Source of the DNA: a virus
Length of the DNA: 33,553 nucleotides
IMG/VR virus record: IMGVR_UViG_3300042907_001641
Location: 1 to 33,553 of that record
Strand: one strand, 5' to 3'
Every line of letters begins with the position of its first letter. Within the stretch, counting starts at the first letter, position 1. The notes beneath the pieces were generated by a model. The model made no database searches. It saw nothing but the letters and a program-made list of their open reading frames with translations, and was not told the origin of the DNA. Shown here piece after piece: positions 4,403 to 33,553 of this stretch. A program made the position numbers and the translations under genes.

Positions 4403-4614
4403 TCGCGCGATGGCGTGCGCGGTTTCGCGGACGCGCGGTCAGCGCCGGACAGTACGACGCCCACATCAACCTGCTGCTCATGGACGTCGCGCGCCTCGAT
4501 CTGCGCGACGTCGATGACCTCGATCCCGACGCGCTCGACGAGATCATGGCAGCATACGAAGCGCGCAGCCAGCAGCAAGAGTCCGAGCGCAAGGCAGCAG
4601 AACGGAGACGGTGA
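4034..4614 (+). CDS. Tail assembly chaperone, -1 frameshifted long form (gpGT-like, about 193 aa)
   Basis: The reading is 4034-4390 in the first frame, then -1 with base 4390 read twice, on to TGA 4612-4614. The slip site CCCAAAC (4384-4390) has the right phase: codons CCA AAC can slip to CCC AAA. The extension adds 74 residues, begins RNELIARWRARF, has an acidic middle (DLRDVDDLDPDALDEI) and ends in a charged helix. It has no start codon with a ribosome site of its own and ends exactly at the tape measure start (TGATG). This is the arrangement known from lambda G/GT and many siphoviruses. The frameshift is inferred from sequence, not measured. Confidence 0.82.
4384..4390 (+). promoter_or_regulatory. 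-1 ribosomal frameshift site CCCAAAC
   Basis: The heptamer fits X XXY YYZ in the chaperone frame (C CCA AAC) and lies 9 bases before the zero-frame stop codon. Slipping by -1 opens a 74-codon extension that runs to the tape measure start. The GC-rich sequence downstream could form a stimulatory structure but I did not fold it. Confidence 0.82.
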
Positions 4615-7600
4615 TGGCTAAGGCTGAGCTCGAGATCATCGTCAAGCTCAAGGACATGGCGAAGGGCGCGCTCAACGATCTCAACACCGGACTGACGGGA
4701 CTCGGCACCGGCGCAGCCGTCGCAGCCGGCGCCGGGATTGCTGCGGTCACTGCCGGGTTGATCAACATCGGCGACCAGGCATCGAACGCGCGCACCGTGC
4801 TGCAGGGACTCAACGACGTCGATCTGACCGCAGTGCTCGACGATGCCCAGCTGCTGGCTCGCAGGTACGGCGAAGACGTCAACAAGACGGTGGCGGCGAC
4901 GCGCACGTTGATGGAGGATTTCGGGCTGACCAGTGAGGAAGCCAACGACCTCATCGTGTCGGGCTTCAACCGCGGCCTCGACGCCTCCGGCGATTTTCTC
5001 GATACCATCGGCGAGTACTCGAATCTATTTGTTGATGGTGGCGCCACTGCCGAAGAGTTCTTCTCGCTGCTGGAGAGCGGCTTGGCCGGCGGCGTGCTCG
5101 GCACCGACAAGGCCGCCGACGCCTTCAAGGAGTTCGGCATTCGGCTCAGCGAGCTGCAGCTGGCCGAAGGCGACATGACGTTCGCCGAAGCGCTCGACGG
5201 CTCTGGCGAGATCGTCAAGCGCATGGTCAGTGGATTCGAGAGCGCACTCTACTTCACCGATCTGTCGGCCAAGGAGATCAACGATCTCCACCAGGGCCTG
5301 ATGGACGGATCGAAGACGACGGCCGACGCTTTCAAGATCATCGTCCCAGCACTCGCCGGAATCGAGAGCGAGGTCGAGCGGAACGCCGCCGGTGTGCAGT
5401 TGTTCGGCACGCAGTGGGAAGACCTCGGCCCGCAGATCATGTCGCAGCTGACGCTGACCGGCACGAGCATGGAACAGCTCGGCGAAACTGCCGAGGCCGA
5501 GCGCGGCGTGATTCTGGGCTCACTCGGCGAGGTTCCGGCGCTCATTTTCGATAAGTTCTCGCTCGCGCTGCTGCCGCTCAGCGATCTGTTGCTGGGCGTG
5601 GCGAACAGCATCATGGCTGCCGAGGACCCACTGGCACAACTCTTCGAGGAGGTGTTCAAGCTGGTGCCGGGCCTCGAGCAATTCGCTGGCCAGGGGACTG
5701 CGATCGTCGCGGCGATGCAGCCGTTCATCAAGGTCGTCCAGGACAACCTGATCCCAATCATTGCCGGACTCGTAGCAGTGGTCGGCGTAGCGCTGGTCGC
5801 TGCGTTGGGCTCCGTGATCGCGCCGATTGCCGGCGTGATTGCAACCACGGGCGCGTTCGTGGCCGCGCTATTCGCCGTGGTGGCCGCTGGCGCAAAAGTG
5901 TATGAGACGATCACAACGCAGTACCCGGGCATGGCTATCCAGATCAAGGACGCGTTCGAGACAGCCAAAGCCTTTGTGATGACGGCGATGCAGGTTATCG
6001 CGACCGTCGTGCAAACCATCACGGCAGCCGTGGTTGGATGGTGGCAGGAGAACGGTGATCGCATCATCGCGCAGGTACAGACGACGTTCAACACCGCGGT
6101 AGCCGTGATCAGCAGCGTGATGATGCAGATCGAGGCAACAGTCGCCACCATCACCGAGGTCATCGCGAAGTTTTGGGCAACGTACGGCGACGAGATTATC
6201 GCTACGGTCAACGATCTCGCAATCCAGCTCGGCGCGCTGTGGGACGAGATTGTGAAGCTCGTCAACGCGGCAATGATCGGCATCGGTCAGCTGATCAACG
6301 GCGCGCTCTCAGAGATTCAGAAATTCTGGGAGACCTACGGCAATGACATCCAGGTTATTGCGTTCAACGTGTTCAACGGGATCAGCCAGCAGATCAGCGG
6401 ATTCATGGAGATTATCCGCGGGATTGTGAAGACCGTTACCGCGCTGATCCAGGGCGACTGGCAGGGCGCGGCCGATGGGCTGCGGACCATCGTCGATGGG
6501 ATCTCCACGTACCTGGTGGGGACGTGGAACACGATCGTCGCGGTGATTGGTCCGATCCTCAATCAGATTACTGCGGCAATCACGCACGCATTCACGGCGG
6601 CATGGAACGGAATCACCGGCACGCTGACAACGATTCAGAACGGCATCACCAGTGCGTTCACTGGCGCATGGAACGGGATCACCGGCACGCTGACAACGAT
6701 TCAGAACGGCATCACGAATGCGTTCACTGGCGCATGGAACGGCATCACCGGTACGCTGACAACGATACAAAACGGCATCGTCAATACATTCACCCATGCA
6801 TGGAACGGGATCACCGCCACACTGACAAGAATCCAGATAGGTATCATTGCTGCAATTCTGCGAGCCTGGACCGGCATCGTGACATTCCTGACCAACATTC
6901 GGAATGGCATCATCAACGCCATCAAAGCCGCGTGGGATGGGCTGGTCGCAAACCTAAGCAAGATCCGGCAGGGTATCATCGACGCGGTGAGCCGTGCATG
7001 GACCGGCATCGTGACATTCCTGACCAACATTCGCGACGGCATCATCAACGCCATCAAAACCGCGTGGGAGGGGCTGGTCGCAAACCTAAGCAAGATCCGG
7101 CAGGGTATCATCGACGCGGTGAGCCGTGCATGGACCGGCATCGTGACATTCCTGACCAACATTCGCGACGGCATCATCAACGCCATCAAAACCGCGTGGG
7201 AGGGGCTGGTCGCAAACCTAAGCAAGATCCGGCAGGGTATCATCGACGCGGTGAGCCGTGCGTGGGATGGTATCAGAGACACACTAAGCACCATTCGGCT
7301 GCGCATCATCCAGGCGATCCAGCTGGCGTGGGATGGACTAATCATCAACCTGGGCAAAATCAAGCAGGGCATCATCAACGCCATCGCGTTTGCGTGGGAT
7401 GGTATCAGAGACACACTAAGCACCATTCGGCTGCGCATCATTCAAGCGATTCAGCTCGCGTGGGATGGAATAACCATCAACCTGGGCAAAATCAAGCAGG
7501 GTATCATCGACGCCATCGCGTTTGCGTGGGATGGTATCAGTGGCGTGCTGACCAACATCCGCAACGGGATTACGAACGCAATCACCGGCGCGCTCGATGC

Positions 7601-8090
7601 CATCAGCGCGCCACTGGGCAACATCAAAACGGCGGTCATCGATGCACTCACCGCCGTCCGCACATGGCTGGAATCGTTTAGCCTAGGAAAAGTCGCGTTG
7701 GGCATCGCCGATTCACTGGTCGGCGGCATGATCAAAGCGATCAGCGGAACCGCAGATAAACTCAAGGACGCGTTCAAGAATCTGGTCCAATCCGCGATCA
7801 ACTCGCTGCCCAAGCCGATCCGCGATGCGCTTGCGCTATTGGGCTTCAAGGTCACGAAGAGCGCTGCCGCGACGCTGCCAGCGCCACCGCCAACGACACG
7901 AGGGGCAGCAGTCGGTAGCGTGCTACCTGGCGCATCGGTGGCTACGGTTTCGAGCCCGTCGATCGTTATCAACATTGGCTCGGTTCGCGACGCGCGCGAC
8001 ATCGACGCTATCAGGCGCGCCGTCCGCGATGGCATGGACGAAGCCGCGCGCCGAGGTATTGTGCAGTCGCAGTTGCCGCGAGGGATCTAA
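4614..8090 (+). CDS. Tape measure protein (1158 aa)
   Basis: This is the longest gene. I choose ATG 4614, with GGAGA five bases before it, over GTG 4611. The tape measure sets tail length and passes through the membrane at infection. Residues 1-370 look helical with a hydrophobic glycine-rich start, residues about 378-435 form a strongly hydrophobic region with several membrane-like stretches, and residues 659-1010 hold sixteen 22-residue repeats with a Trp at almost the same place in each. The C-terminal part has a Pro/Ala linker (LPAPPPTTRG). At 1.5 angstrom per residue the tail would be roughly 170 nm, an estimate from the usual ruler relation. The stop overlaps the next start (TAATG). Confidence 0.92.
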   Translation: MAKAELEIIVKLKDMAKGALNDLNTGLTGLGTGAAVAAGAGIAAVTAGLINIGDQASNARTVLQGLNDVDLTAVLDDAQLLARRYGEDVNKTVAATRTLMEDFGLTSEEANDLIVSGFNRGLDASGDFLDTIGEYSNLFVDGGATAEEFFSLLESGLAGGVLGTDKAADAFKEFGIRLSELQLAEGDMTFAEALDGSGEIVKRMVSGFESALYFTDLSAKEINDLHQGLMDGSKTTADAFKIIVPALAGIESEVERNAAGVQLFGTQWEDLGPQIMSQLTLTGTSMEQLGETAEAERGVILGSLGEVPALIFDKFSLALLPLSDLLLGVANSIMAAEDPLAQLFEEVFKLVPGLEQFAGQGTAIVAAMQPFIKVVQDNLIPIIAGLVAVVGVALVAALGSVIAPIAGVIATTGAFVAALFAVVAAGAKVYETITTQYPGMAIQIKDAFETAKAFVMTAMQVIATVVQTITAAVVGWWQENGDRIIAQVQTTFNTAVAVISSVMMQIEATVATITEVIAKFWATYGDEIIATVNDLAIQLGALWDEIVKLVNAAMIGIGQLINGALSEIQKFWETYGNDIQVIAFNVFNGISQQISGFMEIIRGIVKTVTALIQGDWQGAADGLRTIVDGISTYLVGTWNTIVAVIGPILNQITAAITHAFTAAWNGITGTLTTIQNGITSAFTGAWNGITGTLTTIQNGITNAFTGAWNGITGTLTTIQNGIVNTFTHAWNGITATLTRIQIGIIAAILRAWTGIVTFLTNIRNGIINAIKAAWDGLVANLSKIRQGIIDAVSRAWTGIVTFLTNIRDGIINAIKTAWEGLVANLSKIRQGIIDAVSRAWTGIVTFLTNIRDGIINAIKTAWEGLVANLSKIRQGIIDAVSRAWDGIRDTLSTIRLRIIQAIQLAWDGLIINLGKIKQGIINAIAFAWDGIRDTLSTIRLRIIQAIQLAWDGITINLGKIKQGIIDAIAFAWDGISGVLTNIRNGITNAITGALDAISAPLGNIKTAVIDALTAVRTWLESFSLGKVALGIADSLVGGMIKAISGTADKLKDAFKNLVQSAINSLPKPIRDALALLGFKVTKSAAATLPAPPPTTRGAAVGSVLPGASVATVSSPSIVINIGSVRDARDIDAIRRAVRDGMDEAARRGIVQSQLPRGI
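6588..7643 (+). repeat. Sixteen 66-base (22-residue) repeats in the tape measure gene
   Basis: Units begin at 6588 and recur every 66 bases to 7643. A typical unit is AFTGAWNGITGTLTTIQNGI plus two residues. Two unit types alternate in the middle, giving a 132-base super-repeat that is almost identical in DNA at 6867, 6999 and 7131, which means recent duplication. Twenty-two residues equal two hendecads, a spacing suited to a long straight helix bundle. Each unit would change predicted tail length by about 3.3 nm. Confidence 0.9.
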
Positions 8091-13106: not shown

Positions 13107-13448
13107 CTACCACCAGCCCCAGCCGTAGCGGAGCCGGTTCTGCTGCCACGCGGCCCACGCCGCACAAATGCCGCCGTATCGGGCGTCGGCGTACGCCATC
13201 ATCCATCGAGTCTGGTCGGGAACCAGCCACGGCCGTGGCGGCGCGCCGTGCGTCGGCACGTGACGCTGGCCCAGGCCAACGCTGGCGCCGTTGTCGCCGA
13301 CTGCGTGCCGGTTCCAGCTGCTCTCGCGCGCGATGATCTCGGCGAGGCACTCGTACTCGGCAGCGCGCCCGGCGAGCGCCAGTGTCCACCAGACGTCCAC
13401 GGCCTCCAGCGTCTGCACGTGGGCCGGTGGTGGCTCAAGGGATATCAC
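13107..13448 (-). CDS. Lytic transglycosylase-like protein (113 aa)
   Basis: The start is GTG 13448 with AGGAGGT before it; it overlaps the upstream stop (GTGA). Residues about 35-113 follow the SLT lysozyme-like pattern: ECLAEIIARESSWN with the probable catalytic Glu in RES, GDNGASVGLGQ, then a C-terminal helix pair YADARYGGICAAWAAWQQN. It lacks a signal peptide and is short, so it holds little beyond the catalytic core. It is unusual to find it in the DNA-metabolism operon, far from the lysis genes at 23128-24179. It may be a virion-borne wall-degrading enzyme or a second lysin. Confidence 0.72.
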   Translation of the reverse strand: MISLEPPPAHVQTLEAVDVWWTLALAGRAAEYECLAEIIARESSWNRHAVGDNGASVGLGQRHVPTHGAPPRPWLVPDQTRWMMAYADARYGGICAAWAAWQQNRLRYGWGWW

Positions 13449-14098
13449 AGTAGCACCTCCTGTCGAACCGCGCGCGATGCGCGGATGCGTCGAGCTCGGG
13501 CATCGGTCAGGCTCATGGCGCGCACATGCGCGTCCTGCGCTGGCGTCAGTGGCGGCAGCGCGCGCACGTAGGTCTGAACGCCGTGCGCGTTGGTGCGCGC
13601 CAGCCGGAACCGCGACGCCACGTACAGCCAGCCGTTGTGGAGTCGTGTGTCGCAGTACGACACCAGCGACCGCAAAACATATGGCTCGGTCACGTCCACT
13701 GGCGGACGATGCACCAGCCAGTCGTAGTGCACACGCGCATGCAGCGCGCGCACGACGGTCGAGGCAGCGTGATGCACGTAGTCGGCGCCATCGCGCTGTA
13801 CGCGCGGATGCAGCCACACACGCGCCAGGTTGATGAGCTGGTGCCTGGTGCACATCGCACGGCCGCGGGCCACGTCGTCGACACTGCCGTAGGTCAGGCG
13901 GCTGCTGGAATCGTAGCAGCGTGTGGCCTCGAGGCTGGACACGATCAGCGTACCGACCGGCTCGTCGCCCAGCCACACCACGTAGTGCAGTGGACGGCAG
14001 AGCACATGCACGTGCTGGTGCAGGTAGTGGTGCGCCACGATCTGCCGATTGCACCAGCGCTTCATGGCGGGATCGGCAATGTCGATGCGCAGTGTCAT
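13445..14098 (-). CDS. Mom-like DNA-modification acyltransferase family protein (217 aa)
   Basis: I choose ATG 14098, which has GGAGA five bases upstream, over ATG 14110, which adds four residues. The protein resembles phage proteins annotated as Mom-family or GNAT-like: IVAHHYLHQHVHVL, YVVWLGDEPVGTLIVSS, EATRCY, LINLARVWLHPRVQ, then LVSYCDTRLHNGWLYVASRF and a final GVQTYVR strand. Mom of phage Mu adds a group to adenine in DNA and protects it from restriction. If this holds, the phage modifies its own DNA; the adjacent DUF1599-like gene is consistent. The assignment is from remembered family patterns and is not certain. Confidence 0.55.
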   Translation of the reverse strand: MTLRIDIADPAMKRWCNRQIVAHHYLHQHVHVLCRPLHYVVWLGDEPVGTLIVSSLEATRCYDSSSRLTYGSVDDVARGRAMCTRHQLINLARVWLHPRVQRDGADYVHHAASTVVRALHARVHYDWLVHRPPVDVTEPYVLRSLVSYCDTRLHNGWLYVASRFRLARTNAHGVQTYVRALPPLTPAQDAHVRAMSLTDARARRIRASRAVRQEVLL

Positions 14099-14115
14099 GG
14101 CAGTCTCCATGCAAC

Positions 14116-14143
14116 GACGCGCCAGGAGCCTTCCTGGCGCGTC
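14116..14143 (-). other. Perfect 12-bp intergenic hairpin
   Basis: The stem GACGCGCCAGGA pairs perfectly with TCCTGGCGCGTC around a 4-base loop. It lies between the stop of the upstream leftward gene (14159) and the Mom-like gene start (14098). No T run follows on the minus strand, so it is not a typical intrinsic terminator. The inner ribosome site of the next gene lies just downstream of it. Confidence 0.8.
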
Positions 14144-14158
14144 TGGTGGGCATCGTTG

Positions 14159-14575
14159 TCACTCGCGCACGAACAATTCGACGCGCCAGTCGAGGTGGGT
14201 GGCCAGCAGCATCTCGTACAGCGCCCGGGCCTCCCTGTCCGGCAGGTTGATCGACACCTGCCGGATGTGGCCCTGCCGACGCTGCTGCCAGCCGAGTGCG
14301 CCCCAGCGCTCGAGCAGCAGCGTCTTGATCTTCGCCAAGCGCAGCTTCGGCAGCTCCATCAGGACGGTCTCCCAGCGGTCGCTGCCGGGCACGACGCCCA
14401 GCGCCGTGGCGAGGACCGACACCGCCAGCCCGTTGGCGCTGACGTCATCGAACGGCGCCCAGCGCGTCACGGTGACGCGCCCGATCAGACAGTGGTCAGG
14501 AACGATCTGGGTCCGGCGTGCGGCGCTGGCAGCGGCGATCATCATGTCCTCGTCGTAGTGCTTGCGGTAGCTCAT
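14159..14575 (-). CDS. Unknown protein (138 aa)
   Basis: The start is ATG 14575, with AGGAG eight bases upstream. I do not recognise the family. The first 25 residues (MSYRKHYDEDMMIAAASAAR) look helical, the middle is mixed with a Leu/Lys-rich helix (ELPKLRLAKIKTLLLERWG), and the C-terminus has a beta strand and a helix. It has no cysteines in metal-site pattern, signal peptide or membrane segment. It is preceded by the copied hairpin module found before two other genes of this operon, which suggests that it belongs to the same expression unit. Confidence 0.7.
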   Translation of the reverse strand: MSYRKHYDEDMMIAAASAARRTQIVPDHCLIGRVTVTRWAPFDDVSANGLAVSVLATALGVVPGSDRWETVLMELPKLRLAKIKTLLLERWGALGWQQRRQGHIRQVSINLPDREARALYEMLLATHLDWRVELFVRE

Positions 14576-14638
14576 GGTCGTGGCTCCTGTCAGTGCCGGG
14601 CGCCACAGCGGCGCCCGGTCGGTCGTCGTCGATGTCAG
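14576..14638 (-). repeat. Copied intergenic hairpin module, copy A
   Basis: Between leftward genes lies a module with the order stop codon, CGACGACGACC-type stretch, hairpin (14596-14618: CCGGGCGCC, loop ACAGC, GGCGCCCGG), CACTGAC, ribosome site, CACGACC, ATG. Copies B and C at 15190-15258 and 15628-15693 share this order and almost all bases. Copy A is the most diverged outside the hairpin. No T run follows the hairpin on the minus strand. Confidence 0.85.
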
Positions 14639-15189
14639 AACCCCAGGTACATCAGTGCGTCCTGCCAGACGCTAGCCACTCCGCGTGCCTCCAGGTACGC
14701 GCCCCACGTGGTGGCATCGTCCGATGCCTCGTACGCCGCCTCCGCCGCCGCCAGCCGCTCCTGTGCGGCGCTGTGGCGCTGCTGGATCGTCGGCAGCGCG
14801 ATGGCCTCGCCAGCGCGGTGCAGCTGCTGCCACAGAAGCGCCGCATGCGTGCTGGCGTGCGTCTGCCCGTAGCCGGCATCCGAGCGCAGGTGCGCCGGCT
14901 CCAGGTGGTCGCGCCCACAGGCAGCGCTGGCCTGCAGGTACAGCCACTCGATGGCGTCCGGCGTCAGCAGGACATCGTCGGCGCAGAACGGCTCGGCGGC
15001 GGCGGCGATCTCGAGCTCGGCGATCTGCGTGTCCAGCTCGAGGGCCTTCCGCGTGTACACGCGGACCTCGTCGCTGGCGAACTCCGACGATTTCGACGTC
15101 CAGTAGGCGATGCGGCTGGCCAGCAGCTGGCGCTGGCGCTGGGCGGTGGTCAGGGCGGCGGCGATGGCGGTTGCGGTTGCGTTCGTCAT
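14635..15189 (-). CDS. Unknown helical protein of a three-member family (184 aa)
   Basis: The start is ATG 15189, eight bases after AGGAGA. The first 12 residues (MTNATATAIAAA) nearly match those of the next upstream gene, and SRIAYWTSKSSEF resembles NRIAYWNAQYDLY of the 197-aa protein further upstream. The protein is rich in Ala, Leu, Glu and Gln and looks largely helical, probably coiled-coil near residues 12-60 and 130-160. No enzyme motif, signal peptide or membrane segment is visible. It is part of the hairpin-spaced leftward set; its function is unknown. Confidence 0.7.
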   Translation of the reverse strand: MTNATATAIAAALTTAQRQRQLLASRIAYWTSKSSEFASDEVRVYTRKALELDTQIAELEIAAAAEPFCADDVLLTPDAIEWLYLQASAACGRDHLEPAHLRSDAGYGQTHASTHAALLWQQLHRAGEAIALPTIQQRHSAAQERLAAAEAAYEASDDATTWGAYLEARGVASVWQDALMYLGF

Positions 15190-15258
15190 GGTCGTGTCTC
15201 CTGTCTGGTCAGTGCCGGGCGCCACAGCGGCGCCCGGTCGTCGTCGTCGTCGGTGTCA
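15190..15258 (-). repeat. Copied intergenic hairpin module, copy B
   Basis: It has the same order as copy A, with the hairpin at 15215-15237 (stem CCGGGCGCC, loop ACAGC). It matches copy C almost base for base, apart from one extra CGA unit. The similarity continues through the start codon into about the first 12 codons of the following gene, then stops abruptly. That marks the module as a duplicated unit of leader plus start region. Confidence 0.88.
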
Positions 15259-15627
15259 GATCGTTGCGGTAACCAGCTGCTCGAGGCGGGCGCGGGCGTC
15301 GGTCAGGCGCTGGTCCAGCAGGTCGACCAGGTCGGGATCCTCGATCGCGGTGTTGCACGCATCGTCGAGGTCGTTGTACGCGCGCTGCACATCGTCGTGG
15401 GCGGCAGCGATCAGGACCTCGGTTGCGCGGCGGTAGGCGCGGCACGTCGGCGGAACCGATGCGCGCAGCTCGGCAACCTGTGCGCGCCAGCTGGCTGCCT
15501 TCACCAGGTACTCGGCGCGGTCGCCGTCGTTGGTGGCGTCGCTGGCGAAGCCGAGCCACTCTTCCAGCATGTCGATGGCGAAGCTGAGGCGGGCGGCGGC
15601 GATGGCGGTTGCGGTTGTGTTTGTCAT
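15256..15627 (-). CDS. Unknown helical protein of a three-member family (123 aa)
   Basis: The start is ATG 15627 with AGGAGA upstream. It begins MTNTTATAIAAA, nearly the same as the downstream 184-aa protein, and then diverges completely. The remainder is rich in Ala, Asp, Arg and Leu and looks all-helical (MLEEWLGFASDATNDGDRAE, then LVDLLDQRLTDARARLEQLV). No motif suggests an activity. Shared leaders and first codons point to duplication of an expression cassette followed by replacement or rapid change of the body. Confidence 0.7.
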   Translation of the reverse strand: MTNTTATAIAAARLSFAIDMLEEWLGFASDATNDGDRAEYLVKAASWRAQVAELRASVPPTCRAYRRATEVLIAAAHDDVQRAYNDLDDACNTAIEDPDLVDLLDQRLTDARARLEQLVTATI

Positions 15628-15693
15628 GGTCGTGTCTCCTGTCTGGTCAGTGCCGGGCGCCACAGCGGCGCCCGGTCGTCGTCGTCGGTGTCA
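15628..15693 (-). repeat. Copied intergenic hairpin module, copy C
   Basis: The hairpin lies at 15653-15675 (stem CCGGGCGCC, loop ACAGC). The surrounding bases, ribosome site and start region match copy B. It lies directly after the stop of the 197-aa gene, so every gene junction from 15691 to 14575 carries the same element. Confidence 0.88.
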
Positions 15694-16284
15694 GCGGCGG
15701 CGGAGGTTGGCGCTGAGCTTGAGGATCATCTCGTCCAGCGGCTCCCACTCCGGCAGCAGCCGATCGATCGTTGCCTGGTGCCGGGCGATCGCCTTCGCCT
15801 GAACCGGCGTGCCGTCCTCCCGCACGTAGCTGTAGGACTGCGCCTTGTCGCGTGCCGTGATCGCTGCGCCGATCTCGCGGTCCAGCTCGATCCAGCGGCG
15901 GTACATCGCGCTGGCCTTGAGCTCGGCGATCGTCTGGAAGGTCGGGGCGGCAGGCTCGGCGGCGGCGACGACCTCGGCGGCGGCAGCGGCTTCGGCTTCG
16001 ACGGCTGCCGTCAGCTCTGCGATCTGCGCATGGATCGCGGTCAACTGGCGCGTATACTTCCGCAGCTCGGCGATCGCGACGTCTGCCTGCACGCCGCGAT
16101 TGATCGACGTCGACGCGCCCAGATGGTCTGCAGTGATCGGGCCGGTGTACAGATCGTACTGCGCGTTCCAGTAGGCGATCCGGTTGATCAGCGACGTGCG
16201 CTCGGCGGTGGCGTTGGCCAGGGCGTGGGCGGCGGCGCTGTAGTCGGCGACGGTGGCGGCGGTGGTGGTCGTTGCGGTCGTCAT
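15691..16284 (-). CDS. Unknown helical protein of a three-member family, first gene after promoter (197 aa)
   Basis: The start is ATG 16284 with AGGAGA upstream. The start MTTATTTTAATVADYSAAAH is followed by helices including SLINRIAYWNAQYDLY, a region with TRQLTAIHAQIAELTAAVEA and a long Ala/Glu run, then WIELDREIGAAITARDKAQS. It looks like an extended coiled-coil protein. The RIAYW segment links it to the 184-aa protein. It is the first gene after the strong promoter at 16336-16364, so it should be highly expressed early. No function can be assigned. Confidence 0.7.
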   Translation of the reverse strand: MTTATTTTAATVADYSAAAHALANATAERTSLINRIAYWNAQYDLYTGPITADHLGASTSINRGVQADVAIAELRKYTRQLTAIHAQIAELTAAVEAEAAAAAEVVAAAEPAAPTFQTIAELKASAMYRRWIELDREIGAAITARDKAQSYSYVREDGTPVQAKAIARHQATIDRLLPEWEPLDEMILKLSANLRRR

Positions 16285-16335: not shown

Positions 16336-16364
16336 ACTATACCATGGTGGTACAGTACTGTCAA
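16336..16364 (-). promoter_or_regulatory. Strong sigma70-type promoter with overlapping palindrome
   Basis: On the minus strand the -35 box is TTGACA (16364-16359) and the -10 box TATAGT (16341-16336), separated by exactly 17 bases. The spacer and -10 form a palindrome-like operator: AGTACT at both ends and ACCA/TGGT inside (about 16333-16359). The -35 overlaps the stop of the upstream HTH gene. A repressor bound to the palindrome would cover the promoter; one of the adjacent HTH proteins is a natural candidate, which is inference. Confidence 0.88.
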
Positions 16365-18605: not shown

Positions 18606-18622
18606 GGTCAGTCTCCTGTGAT

Positions 18623-18650
18623 GATGCGCCGATCAAATTATCGGCGCATC
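18623..18650 (-). other. Perfect 11-bp hairpin before the clamp gene
   Basis: GATGCGCCGAT pairs with ATCGGCGCATC around a 6-base AT-rich loop. It lies between the SSB-like gene and the clamp gene, directly upstream of the clamp ribosome site. No T run follows on the minus strand; on the plus strand a T run follows ten bases later. It fits the pattern of hairpins at gene junctions in this operon. Confidence 0.8.
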
Positions 18651-18665
18651 TGTGGCAGCGTTTTT
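18646..18665 (+). repeat. GCATCTGTGGCAGCGTTTTT motif
   Basis: This 20-base stretch matches the one at 107-127 except for one missing T in the middle. It overlaps the distal arm of the hairpin at 18623-18650 and ends at the stop codon of the SSB-like gene, which is encoded on the other strand. Confidence 0.5.
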
Positions 18666-18666
18666 A

Positions 18667-23067: not shown

Positions 23068-23069
23068 GC

Positions 23070-23075
23070 TATACT
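23070..23075 (+). promoter_or_regulatory. TATACT -10-like element before the lysis genes
   Basis: GGCTATACTG lies just after the replication gene stop (23065-23067) and matches the element at 20311. The -35 is poor. It is placed to start lysis gene transcription. Confidence 0.5.
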
Positions 23076-23081
23076 GTGGCG

Positions 23082-23106
23082 GGCGCCGGGGTCTGCGGCC
23101 GGCGCC
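23082..23106 (+). other. Hairpin at the start of the lysis transcript
   Basis: GGCGCCGG (23082-23089) pairs with CCGGCGCC (23099-23106). It begins at the position expected for the transcript start, and is followed by the ribosome site AGGAGG of the amidase gene. Confidence 0.72.
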
Positions 23107-23127
23107 TGGCGTTCGACAGGAGGCACT

Positions 23128-32487: not shown

Positions 32488-32964
32488 ATGACCTACAACA
32501 GCAGCAACTACAGCGAGCAGGGCGGCGCGTCGTGGGTCGTGGACGGCACGCTGACCGTCAACGGGACCATGACGATCGCGGCAACGGCGACGGTCGGTGT
32601 GCCACGCGTGACGAAAATCGCGCTGGCCGCCGTCGACACGGCGGGCGGCGTGTTCGCGTGGGCGAATCCGGCAGGCGCCGCGATCCTCGTGCACAGCGTG
32701 ATGCTCGATGTCACGACGTTCACGACCGGCGCCTGCACCATCGACGTCGGTGTGGCCGCGAACGGCACGACGCTGAGCGATACGTTGATCGACGGCGCCA
32801 GTCTGGCGACGGCGGCAAAGGTGTTGAACAGCGCGACGAACGCCGGCACCAACGGATCGATGTCGCGCAAGGTCACCAGCACGCAGTTTGTCACCGGCTC
32901 GGTGGCGAGCGGCGCGTCGGCGGGCCTCGTCGGCAACGCGTACATCGTGTGGTCGGTGATCTGA
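32488..32964 (+). CDS. Small beta-rich virion protein (158 aa)
   Basis: The ATG lies two bases after the previous stop; GGAGG lies upstream within that gene. The product is rich in Thr, Ala, Val and Gly and alternates in a beta pattern (GTLTVNGTMTIAATATVG, then VHSVMLDVTTFTTGACTID), as for head fibre or decoration proteins. No known active site is visible. Its last 22 residues are repeated at the left window edge. Confidence 0.55.
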   Translation: MTYNSSNYSEQGGASWVVDGTLTVNGTMTIAATATVGVPRVTKIALAAVDTAGGVFAWANPAGAAILVHSVMLDVTTFTTGACTIDVGVAANGTTLSDTLIDGASLATAAKVLNSATNAGTNGSMSRKVTSTQFVTGSVASGASAGLVGNAYIVWSVI

Positions 32965-33017
32965 TCGCAGCGACGACCGGCGGGGCAACTCGCCGGTCGC
33001 AGCATCTCGGAGGTCAT

Positions 33018-33287
33018 ATGGCGATCATCAGCAAGAATGTCACGATCACGACCAGCGCGACGCTGATGCACACGTCGGCCAGCAATGGCTGCCGCATCTA
33101 TCTGTACAGCGCCAGCGGCGGACAGGACATCACCATTGGTCCCGCAACGGTAGCGTCTGGCACGGGCTTTGTGCTATCGAGCAGCAAGACCAGCGAGCTG
33201 ACCATCGATCTGCCGCCAGGCGACAGCCTGTACGGCATCGTGGGATCATCGACGCACACGATCCGCCTCACGGTAATGGAGTACTGA
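33018..33287 (+). CDS. Small beta-rich virion protein, second copy (89 aa)
   Basis: This is the counterpart of 140-409 at the other end of the unit, with a CGGAGG ribosome site. It differs by 15 substitutions in the codons, of which four change residues (A2, I4, T58, M87 here). Both copies have intact frames. If the ends represent one circular genome, only one copy exists in each particle. Confidence 0.7.
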   Translation: MAIISKNVTITTSATLMHTSASNGCRIYLYSASGGQDITIGPATVASGTGFVLSSSKTSELTIDLPPGDSLYGIVGSSTHTIRLTVMEY

Positions 33288-33288
33288 C

Positions 33289-33553
33289 ATGGCGCTGGGC
33301 CTGACCGTTACCGATCTGCGCGAGTACCTCGATCAGGTGCCGGATCGCGCTGCGCAGCGCGTGACGGTCACCGGCTCGCCGACTGGCGGCACGTACACGC
33401 TGACGTACCAGGGCGTCGCGACGGTCGCCATCGCCTACAACGCCACGCCAGCCACCGTGCAGGCGGCGATCACGACGGTGGCCGCGACGTCGGGCGACGC
33501 GTCGCCAGTGTCGGTGTACGGCAGCGCCGGCGGACCGTACCTGGTGGTGTGGT
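33289..33553 (+). CDS. Head-tail connector protein, second copy, cut by the window end
   Basis: It matches the first 265 bases of the gene at 411, with four silent differences, and runs off the window. It already includes the beginning of the inserted beta domain, so both strains carry the insertion. Confidence 0.8.
   Translation, partial: MALGLTVTDLREYLDQVPDRAAQRVTVTGSPTGGTYTLTYQGVATVAIAYNATPATVQAAITTVAATSGDASPVSVYGSAGGPYLVVW

Follow-up and report, generated by a model that had tools for sequence, protein, structure and literature searches.

At positions 14,576 to 15,693 of a viral DNA of 33,553 nt (IMG/VR virus record IMGVR_UViG_3300042907_001641; the whole stretch, at its full length, is called the window below), three gene junctions carry the same hairpin in front of different gene bodies, which raises the question of how one leader came to stand before several genes. 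The initial annotation took the locus for a duplicated expression cassette whose bodies had been swapped or rapidly changed, a possible way for the phage to load new early proteins.

The repeated hairpin and its operon

The plus-strand sequence CCGGGCGCCACAGCGGCGCCCGG occurs in three exact copies (14596-14618, 15215-15237 and 15653-15675), each within a 33-nt block that is 100% identical at all three junctions, and this bears out the claim of a common hairpin; no further copy is present in the whole 33,553-base record, and dinucleotide shuffles give 0.01 chance matches in the window for a 23-mer within 3 mismatches. The loop had been given as ACAGC, which is correct for the plus strand; because the genes lie on the minus strand, the loop of the mRNA is GCUGU and not ACAGC, and in transcript sense the hairpin reads CCGGGCGCC-GCTGT-GGCGCCCGG, with a 9-bp stem and a 5-nt loop. 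Two copies have more in common, as had also been noted: 15153-15249 and 15591-15687 have 98% identity across a 97-nt stretch that spans the hairpin, the AGGAG ribosome site and the first 12 codons (MTNATATAIAAA and MTNTTATAIAAA). That B and C might extend in frame through the hairpin from GTG starts was rejected, since the hairpin lies 21-27 nt from the ATG, a distance that does not keep a constant frame.

The hairpins lie in a minus-strand operon in which a single promoter is followed by genes A, B, C and D. The promoter is sigma70-like (TTGACA-17-TATAGT, 16336..16364, minus strand, 11/12 consensus matches), and its spacer holds a dyad, TACCA-CCA-TGGTA, at 16340-16352. This dyad (TACCAGTCTGGTA or a near variant) is present in the promoters of 7/7 records containing the first gene, twice in G003, and is a possible candidate operator for the adjacent HTH protein. 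In most relatives the spacer dyad reads TACCAG-T-CTGGTA. The features that follow are all on the minus strand. Gene A (15691..16284, 197 aa) is a fusion of a C-like N-terminal domain and a domain of the type of gene H, which is described below. Linker A>B (15628..15690) has its hairpin at 15653-15675 and AGGAG 8 nt upstream of the ATG, and is followed by gene B (15256..15627, 123 aa), by its sequence a small Ala-rich protein, which is shortened to 77-78 aa in G005-G007 (B'). Linker B>C (15190..15255, hairpin 15215-15237) has a right half of B type and leads to gene C (14635..15189, 184 aa), predicted to be helical (model pLDDT 67), and linker C>D (14576..14634, hairpin 14596-14618) leads to gene D (14159..14575, 138 aa), which ends the operon and stays constant, with about 53-100% identity in relatives. 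Beyond D, a linker with a different, 12-bp hairpin (14099..14158, hairpin 14116-14143) precedes a Mom-like gene (13445..14098, 217 aa, weak PHROG match). The bodies gave no convincing match in Pfam, PHROG, PADLOC or PDB, only weak ones; the model of protein D (pLDDT 69) resembled ferredoxin-like structures only weakly, the best E being 0.016. The strong sigma70-like promoter and the position of the genes suggest that A-D may be newly loaded early proteins.

Linkers in related contigs

A hairpin-core scan of 2.9 million viral contigs returned seven related IMG/VR contigs. An independent scan with a protein D alignment returned the same seven (22 stretches fitted the peptide pattern and 7 were confirmed), a scan with the SLT-like protein the same seven and one distant record, and a scan with the ssb-like protein six of the seven and G008. 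Because the hairpin and D searches gave the same contigs, the hairpin is present in every D-bearing relative recovered. The sample is small, with 8 records in two groups: a close group (the window and G004-G007), in which protein D is 88-100% identical to that of the window, and a distant group (G001-G003), in which identity is about 50-56%. Among 84,980 bacterial and archaeal genomes no relative was found by hairpin-plus-ribosome-site pattern or by D profile, and INPHARED gave no match by D protein or operon DNA; matches to the portal protein were all <60% identical and spread over many hosts. No repeated linkers were present within the 12.4 kb examined of a distant SLT-like relative (L035). 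In G008 (L051, L052) the hairpin between the ssb-like gene and the sliding clamp is present and the operon is absent from the contig parts examined.

Across the 8 records, 24 of 25 cassette junctions carry the hairpin, the exception being F>D of G005, and the transcript-sense loop is GCTGT in 24/24 copies. In 23 ordinary linkers the stem starts 14-19 nt past the stop codon, and 21-27 nt separate its end from the ATG; the 24th, T>P of G003, has the hairpin followed by a second promoter copy and is the only one with a promoter (23/24 are without). There, at L020 4593-5050, the second promoter copy and an apparent HTH-gene tail lie behind the hairpin, followed by P, which looks like duplication of a promoter-containing cassette. 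Just upstream of the starts, the linkers read ACAGGAGAC or GAGAGGAGCACC. The stem is perfect, with 8-9 bp across linkers, and includes one compensatory pair (C-G in one group, G-C in the other); two adjacent linkers of G006 have in common a G-U stem variant. For 21 of the 24 linkers, 17 of them distinct, 97.4% of cells are paired; column shuffles give 91.9% and slid structures 36-47%. One pair of linkers compared from group to group had edits at 6 of ~20 nt in the left flank, 9 of ~27 nt in the right flank and 0 of 17 nt in the core.

The folding energy of the linkers is about -23 kcal/mol. The stems are not followed by a T run, a terminator scan of the window lists no linker, and Rfam gave 0 matches in the window above the gathering score. 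Predicted accessibility of the ribosome site with the native hairpin exceeded the shuffled mean in only 13/22 linkers; insulation of the ribosome site by the hairpin was rejected, accessibility being not systematically higher than with shuffled hairpins. Pairing of the loop with the ribosome site (CUGU with ACAG) was likewise rejected, because group 2 (distant) linkers have no ACAG at the ribosome site yet keep the loop. Linkers are no more alike within a genome than between genomes (permutation of 15 close-group linkers, 427/2000 for the right half and 772/2000 for the whole linker), and general concerted evolution within a genome was rejected, with no significant signal. Single within-genome cases are the start of C in the window, the G-U of the adjacent G006 linkers, and a spacer common to B and C in G004.

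Stems are also present at other junctions. In the early block of the window, 5/5 junctions of ~60 nt contain a perfect stem of 9 bp or more (A>B, B>C, C>D, D>Mom-like with 12 bp, and ssb-like>clamp with 11 bp), compared with 12/2936 random 60-nt stretches outside those linkers. Three other early-block gaps (36, 41 and 143 nt), at which start codons are uncertain, have no stem or an 8-bp stem, and the remaining junctions are overlaps, 8 nt, or the promoter gap. Five plus-strand gaps were examined: a 60-nt gap (23068-23127) has an 8-bp stem and the other four none. The Mom-like gene stands behind the D linker in the window, G004 and G007; it is absent there in G005 and G006, so that in those two the D-linker hairpin precedes the SLT-like gene. 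The Mom-like gene of G001 (L018 5552-6205, 58% identity) lies after the SLT-like gene, unlike its position in the window. The linker between the ssb-like gene and the sliding clamp (18606..18666, minus strand, 11-bp hairpin 18623-18650) shows a T-A to G-C exchange in its hairpin between relatives, and this hairpin is kept in G008 before a clamp of only 45% identity. Its cores in G004 and G006 are exact inversions of each other, and the cores of a different hairpin behind the ssb-like gene are exactly inverted between G001 (L018) and G003 (L020). The inverted cores read GTTTG/CAAAC and CAGCACGGTGCCA/TGGCACCGTGCTG (window 18623-18650, L021, L023; group 2 L018, L020). Such inversions hint at palindromes active at the DNA level.

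Gene bodies and breakpoints

The gene order is A-B-C-D in the window, E-B-C-D in G004, E-B'-F-D in G005, H-E-B'-C-D in G006 and E-B'-C-D in G007; in the distant group it is P-Q-R-D in G001, S-T-(promoter)-P-R-D in G003 and P-R-D in G002, the record of which is cut. In the window A takes the place of E, with an alignment that ends at most 8 nt from the start codon and resumes at the stop codon. In G005, F (62 aa) replaces C, with an alignment that breaks at the start codon and resumes at the ribosome site of D; D is intact behind this hairpinless junction. H (91 aa) of G006 is an insertion between the promoter leader and the linker, and E, which is directly behind the promoter in G004, G005 and G007, follows a hairpin linker in G006, where its ribosome-site spacer is that of G004. 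The H-like end of A in the window is followed by the same left half-linker as in G006, but then by B, not E. Q and one linker copy, together 392 bp, are present in G001 and missing from G003 and G002, in which the single linkers at the Q-less junctions are different variants at one base. Across the window and G001-G007, then, bodies change while leaders stay, as the initial annotation had proposed to check; nowhere in the 8 records do bodies and leaders change together, and no single ancestral gene spans the region. Its duplicated expression cassette survives as bodies swapped between constant leaders and fails as a unit of expression, one promoter serving the operon.

The bodies were said to diverge completely. 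This holds for B and C (shuffled scores reach the observed score in 13/1000; profile probability 0.4%) and does not hold for A and C, which have an N-terminal domain in common (0/1000 shuffles, z 5-7; profile probability 70%, E 4e-5), with a likeness that takes in the ribosome site region (~73% at the nucleotide level over 135 nt). The C-terminal part of A matches the separate gene H of G006 (97% over 86 aa). Resemblance was also found for F/H, for S/T in G003 and, more weakly, for A/E, and these pairs together with A/C make part of the set a small paralogous family; shuffle and profile comparisons gave no convincing relationship for E vs C or for Q or R vs B. The start of C reads MTTRTIT(T/S)ATAIA in G004, G006 and G007 and MTNATATAIA, as in B, in the window, where the ribosome-site spacer is also that of B. 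Because the C starts of the relatives differ, the start common to B and C is best read, from these alignments, as a local overwrite by a B-type start peculiar to the window phage, and the first 12 codons drop out as a general part of the module.

Breakpoints were sought by maximum chi-square, with parent pairs for the three tests that were picked after the identity table was seen. The ssb-like gene of the window is nearest to that of G005 (97.1%, vs 88.6% for G007) and its clamp to that of G007 (97.1%, vs 90.5% for G005), and the switch from G005-like to G007-like sequence maps to the interval 18659-18600, within the hairpin linker that separates the two genes (195 informative sites, 0/1000 permutations); breakpoints are easily placed in linkers because linkers hold few informative sites. 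The B-C break lies 9-11 nt before the stop codon of B, and the C-D break ~100 nt inside C, outside the linker, which speaks against exchange at the linker. Among triples of 5 genomes, 13/78 switch parents at three linker/cassette junctions and 5/144 at six others, the latter all at the junction of the clamp with the next gene (5/30 there); these counts are descriptive because the triples overlap and are not independent.

Explanations and known systems

The probable explanation is a single-promoter operon whose near-identical linkers are joints where homologous recombination exchanges whole genes. The linker unit, 60-70 nt, would consist of a stop codon, ~16 nt, the 9-bp GC-rich hairpin with its GCUGU loop, ~25 nt with the ribosome site, and a start codon. 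Linkers of co-infecting relatives, or those within one genome, would recombine homologously, with the result that one whole gene is swapped, inserted or deleted. Because every linker is near-identical, genes could be exchanged without disturbed expression, and an incoming gene would always be preceded by a stop codon, hairpin and ribosome site and be served by the promoter of the operon. Homologous recombination would be the agent, and the genes would act early. The hairpin itself would most likely act in the mRNA, through shielding or processing of intercistronic mRNA, a role favoured because the stem lies just outside the footprints expected for terminating and initiating ribosomes, given the sizes of such footprints. 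A stronger form, that the hairpin linkers are a built-in exchange platform in which palindromes promote recombination and the RNA hairpin keeps cistrons independent, is tentative and rather improbable; were it true, early host-interaction genes would be plugged in and out at fixed slots, and selection would act on one repeat in two capacities, as a joint in the DNA and as an element of the RNA.

There is a low though appreciable probability that the linkers persist solely for a role in RNA, be it processing, protection of 3' ends, the decoupling of adjacent cistrons or recognition of the GCUGU loop by a protein, and that the turnover of genes simply spares these essential linkers. The conserved pairing with its compensatory change and G-U variant argues for this, as do the stems of all five ~60-nt early linkers even where their sequence differs, the T-A to G-C exchange in the ssb>clamp hairpin, and a loop that is GCTGT in 24/24 copies although the cores of other hairpins are inverted in these phages. 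Yet ribosome-site accessibility is not predicted to be raised, D is intact behind the hairpinless F>D junction of G005, and a pure RNA role leaves the near-identical flanks outside the stem and the linker breakpoints unexplained. Plain tandem duplication, by which an ancestral gene and its leader were copied and the copies diverged, would account for the domain that A and C share, including the ribosome site region, and for the likeness of F/H and S/T; it is quite unlikely as the general origin, with B/C, E/C and Q or R/B showing no convincing relationship, the same slot holding different genes in relatives, and the B/C start identity in the window being a local overwrite.

Transcription terminators that taper expression along the operon would fit the GC-rich stem after each stop codon and the folding energy of the linkers, but the missing T run, the absence of linkers from the terminator scan, and a single promoter, under which all downstream genes would lose expression, make this reading highly improbable. 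A dedicated recombinase or mobile cassette system acting at the linkers is just as hard to credit: the conserved palindromic core, the precise cassette differences and the exact core inversion in two other linkers would suit one, but the proteins scanned, which do not cover every ORF, include none recognisable as an integrase or invertase, the HTH protein only weakly resembles invertase and transposase HTH domains, and the breakpoints vary in position.

The joints of the favoured explanation, exchange by homologous recombination at the linkers, have counterparts in several phages. PeSLs (promoter early stem-loops) of T4-like phages were reportedly described by Arbiol in 2010 and by Comeau in 2014, and the title of the latter paper is said to speak of a promoter-terminator motif. 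In the part of the published account drawn on here, they are mobile regulatory cassettes said to mediate gene shuffling among relatives (PMC4503421; see also PMC3950731), and the likeness, as far as that part goes, is a short repeated intergenic stem-loop element that is dense in a plastic region and tied to shuffling. The present element differs in joining a stem-loop to a ribosome site, in being promoterless in 23/24 cases, in lying inside one operon of a ~33-kb phage, and in having a stem without a terminator tail; T>P of G003, with its hairpin and then a promoter, is the one PeSL-like arrangement. Because the promoter and terminator features that were tested for are lacking, the linkers are filed as recombinogenic regulatory linkers that work like PeSLs, and not as PeSL members. 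No T4-type core set was present among the proteins scanned, though the terminase matches a T4likevirus-type N-terminal Pfam model.

Early genes of T7 have RNase III-site hairpins between the cistrons of a polycistronic phage transcript, and as T7 is commonly described the two systems are alike in having hairpins between early cistrons; T7 has longer stems with imperfections, and these do not form identical linkers where genes are swapped. In cluster K mycobacteriophages, the sections of the report used here describe SAS as a repeat just before the starts of many gene families, about half of them with an inverted repeat in front, the ESAS, whose 17-bp inverted repeats are imperfect and, in the authors' view, unlikely to pair as hairpins in RNA (PMC3203893). 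The stem here is, in contrast, perfect and has a compensatory change, and the SAS 13-mer GGGATAGGAGCCC, which stands just upstream of starts, is absent from these linkers. In the haloarchaeal virus HGTV-1, according to the portion of the text consulted, a TATA-like box and an inverted repeat precede most left-side ORFs (PMC3950731); this is also an inverted-repeat motif before many ORFs for which regulation and shuffling are suggested in that portion, but its motif holds a promoter element and the virus is archaeal. Phage mosaicism through homologous recombination at short common sequences, leading to gene gain and loss, is exemplified in the excerpted text by a 1.35-kb segment of LRRHood that is flanked by 29-bp repeats (PMC3029335). 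Unlike such boundary sequences, the sequence here recurs at almost all junctions of a single operon and belongs to the expression signal.

No report of promoterless hairpin and ribosome-site linkers at swapped genes of small phages was found in a literature coverage that was partial, so that this absence is a weak argument for novelty. As a rule, the turnover of genes at early phage loci is visible only as an outcome, and the close relatives compared here show the joints. If the arrangement is general, the linker would be a marker for swap slots and new host-interaction genes in uncultured phages, and the PeSL idea would reach beyond T4-like phages to a small phage whose linkers lack promoters.

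The 33.5-kb window record has ThyX, dCMP deaminase, Mu F-like and portal proteins among the proteins scanned. Its ends, 1-675 and 32896-33553, repeat each other (94% over ~675 nt, gapped), which would reflect either terminal redundancy or errors in the assembly of a circular genome. Arrays of a 66-nt repeat are present at 6579-7568, within a large ORF (4611-8090) that is probably the tape measure gene.
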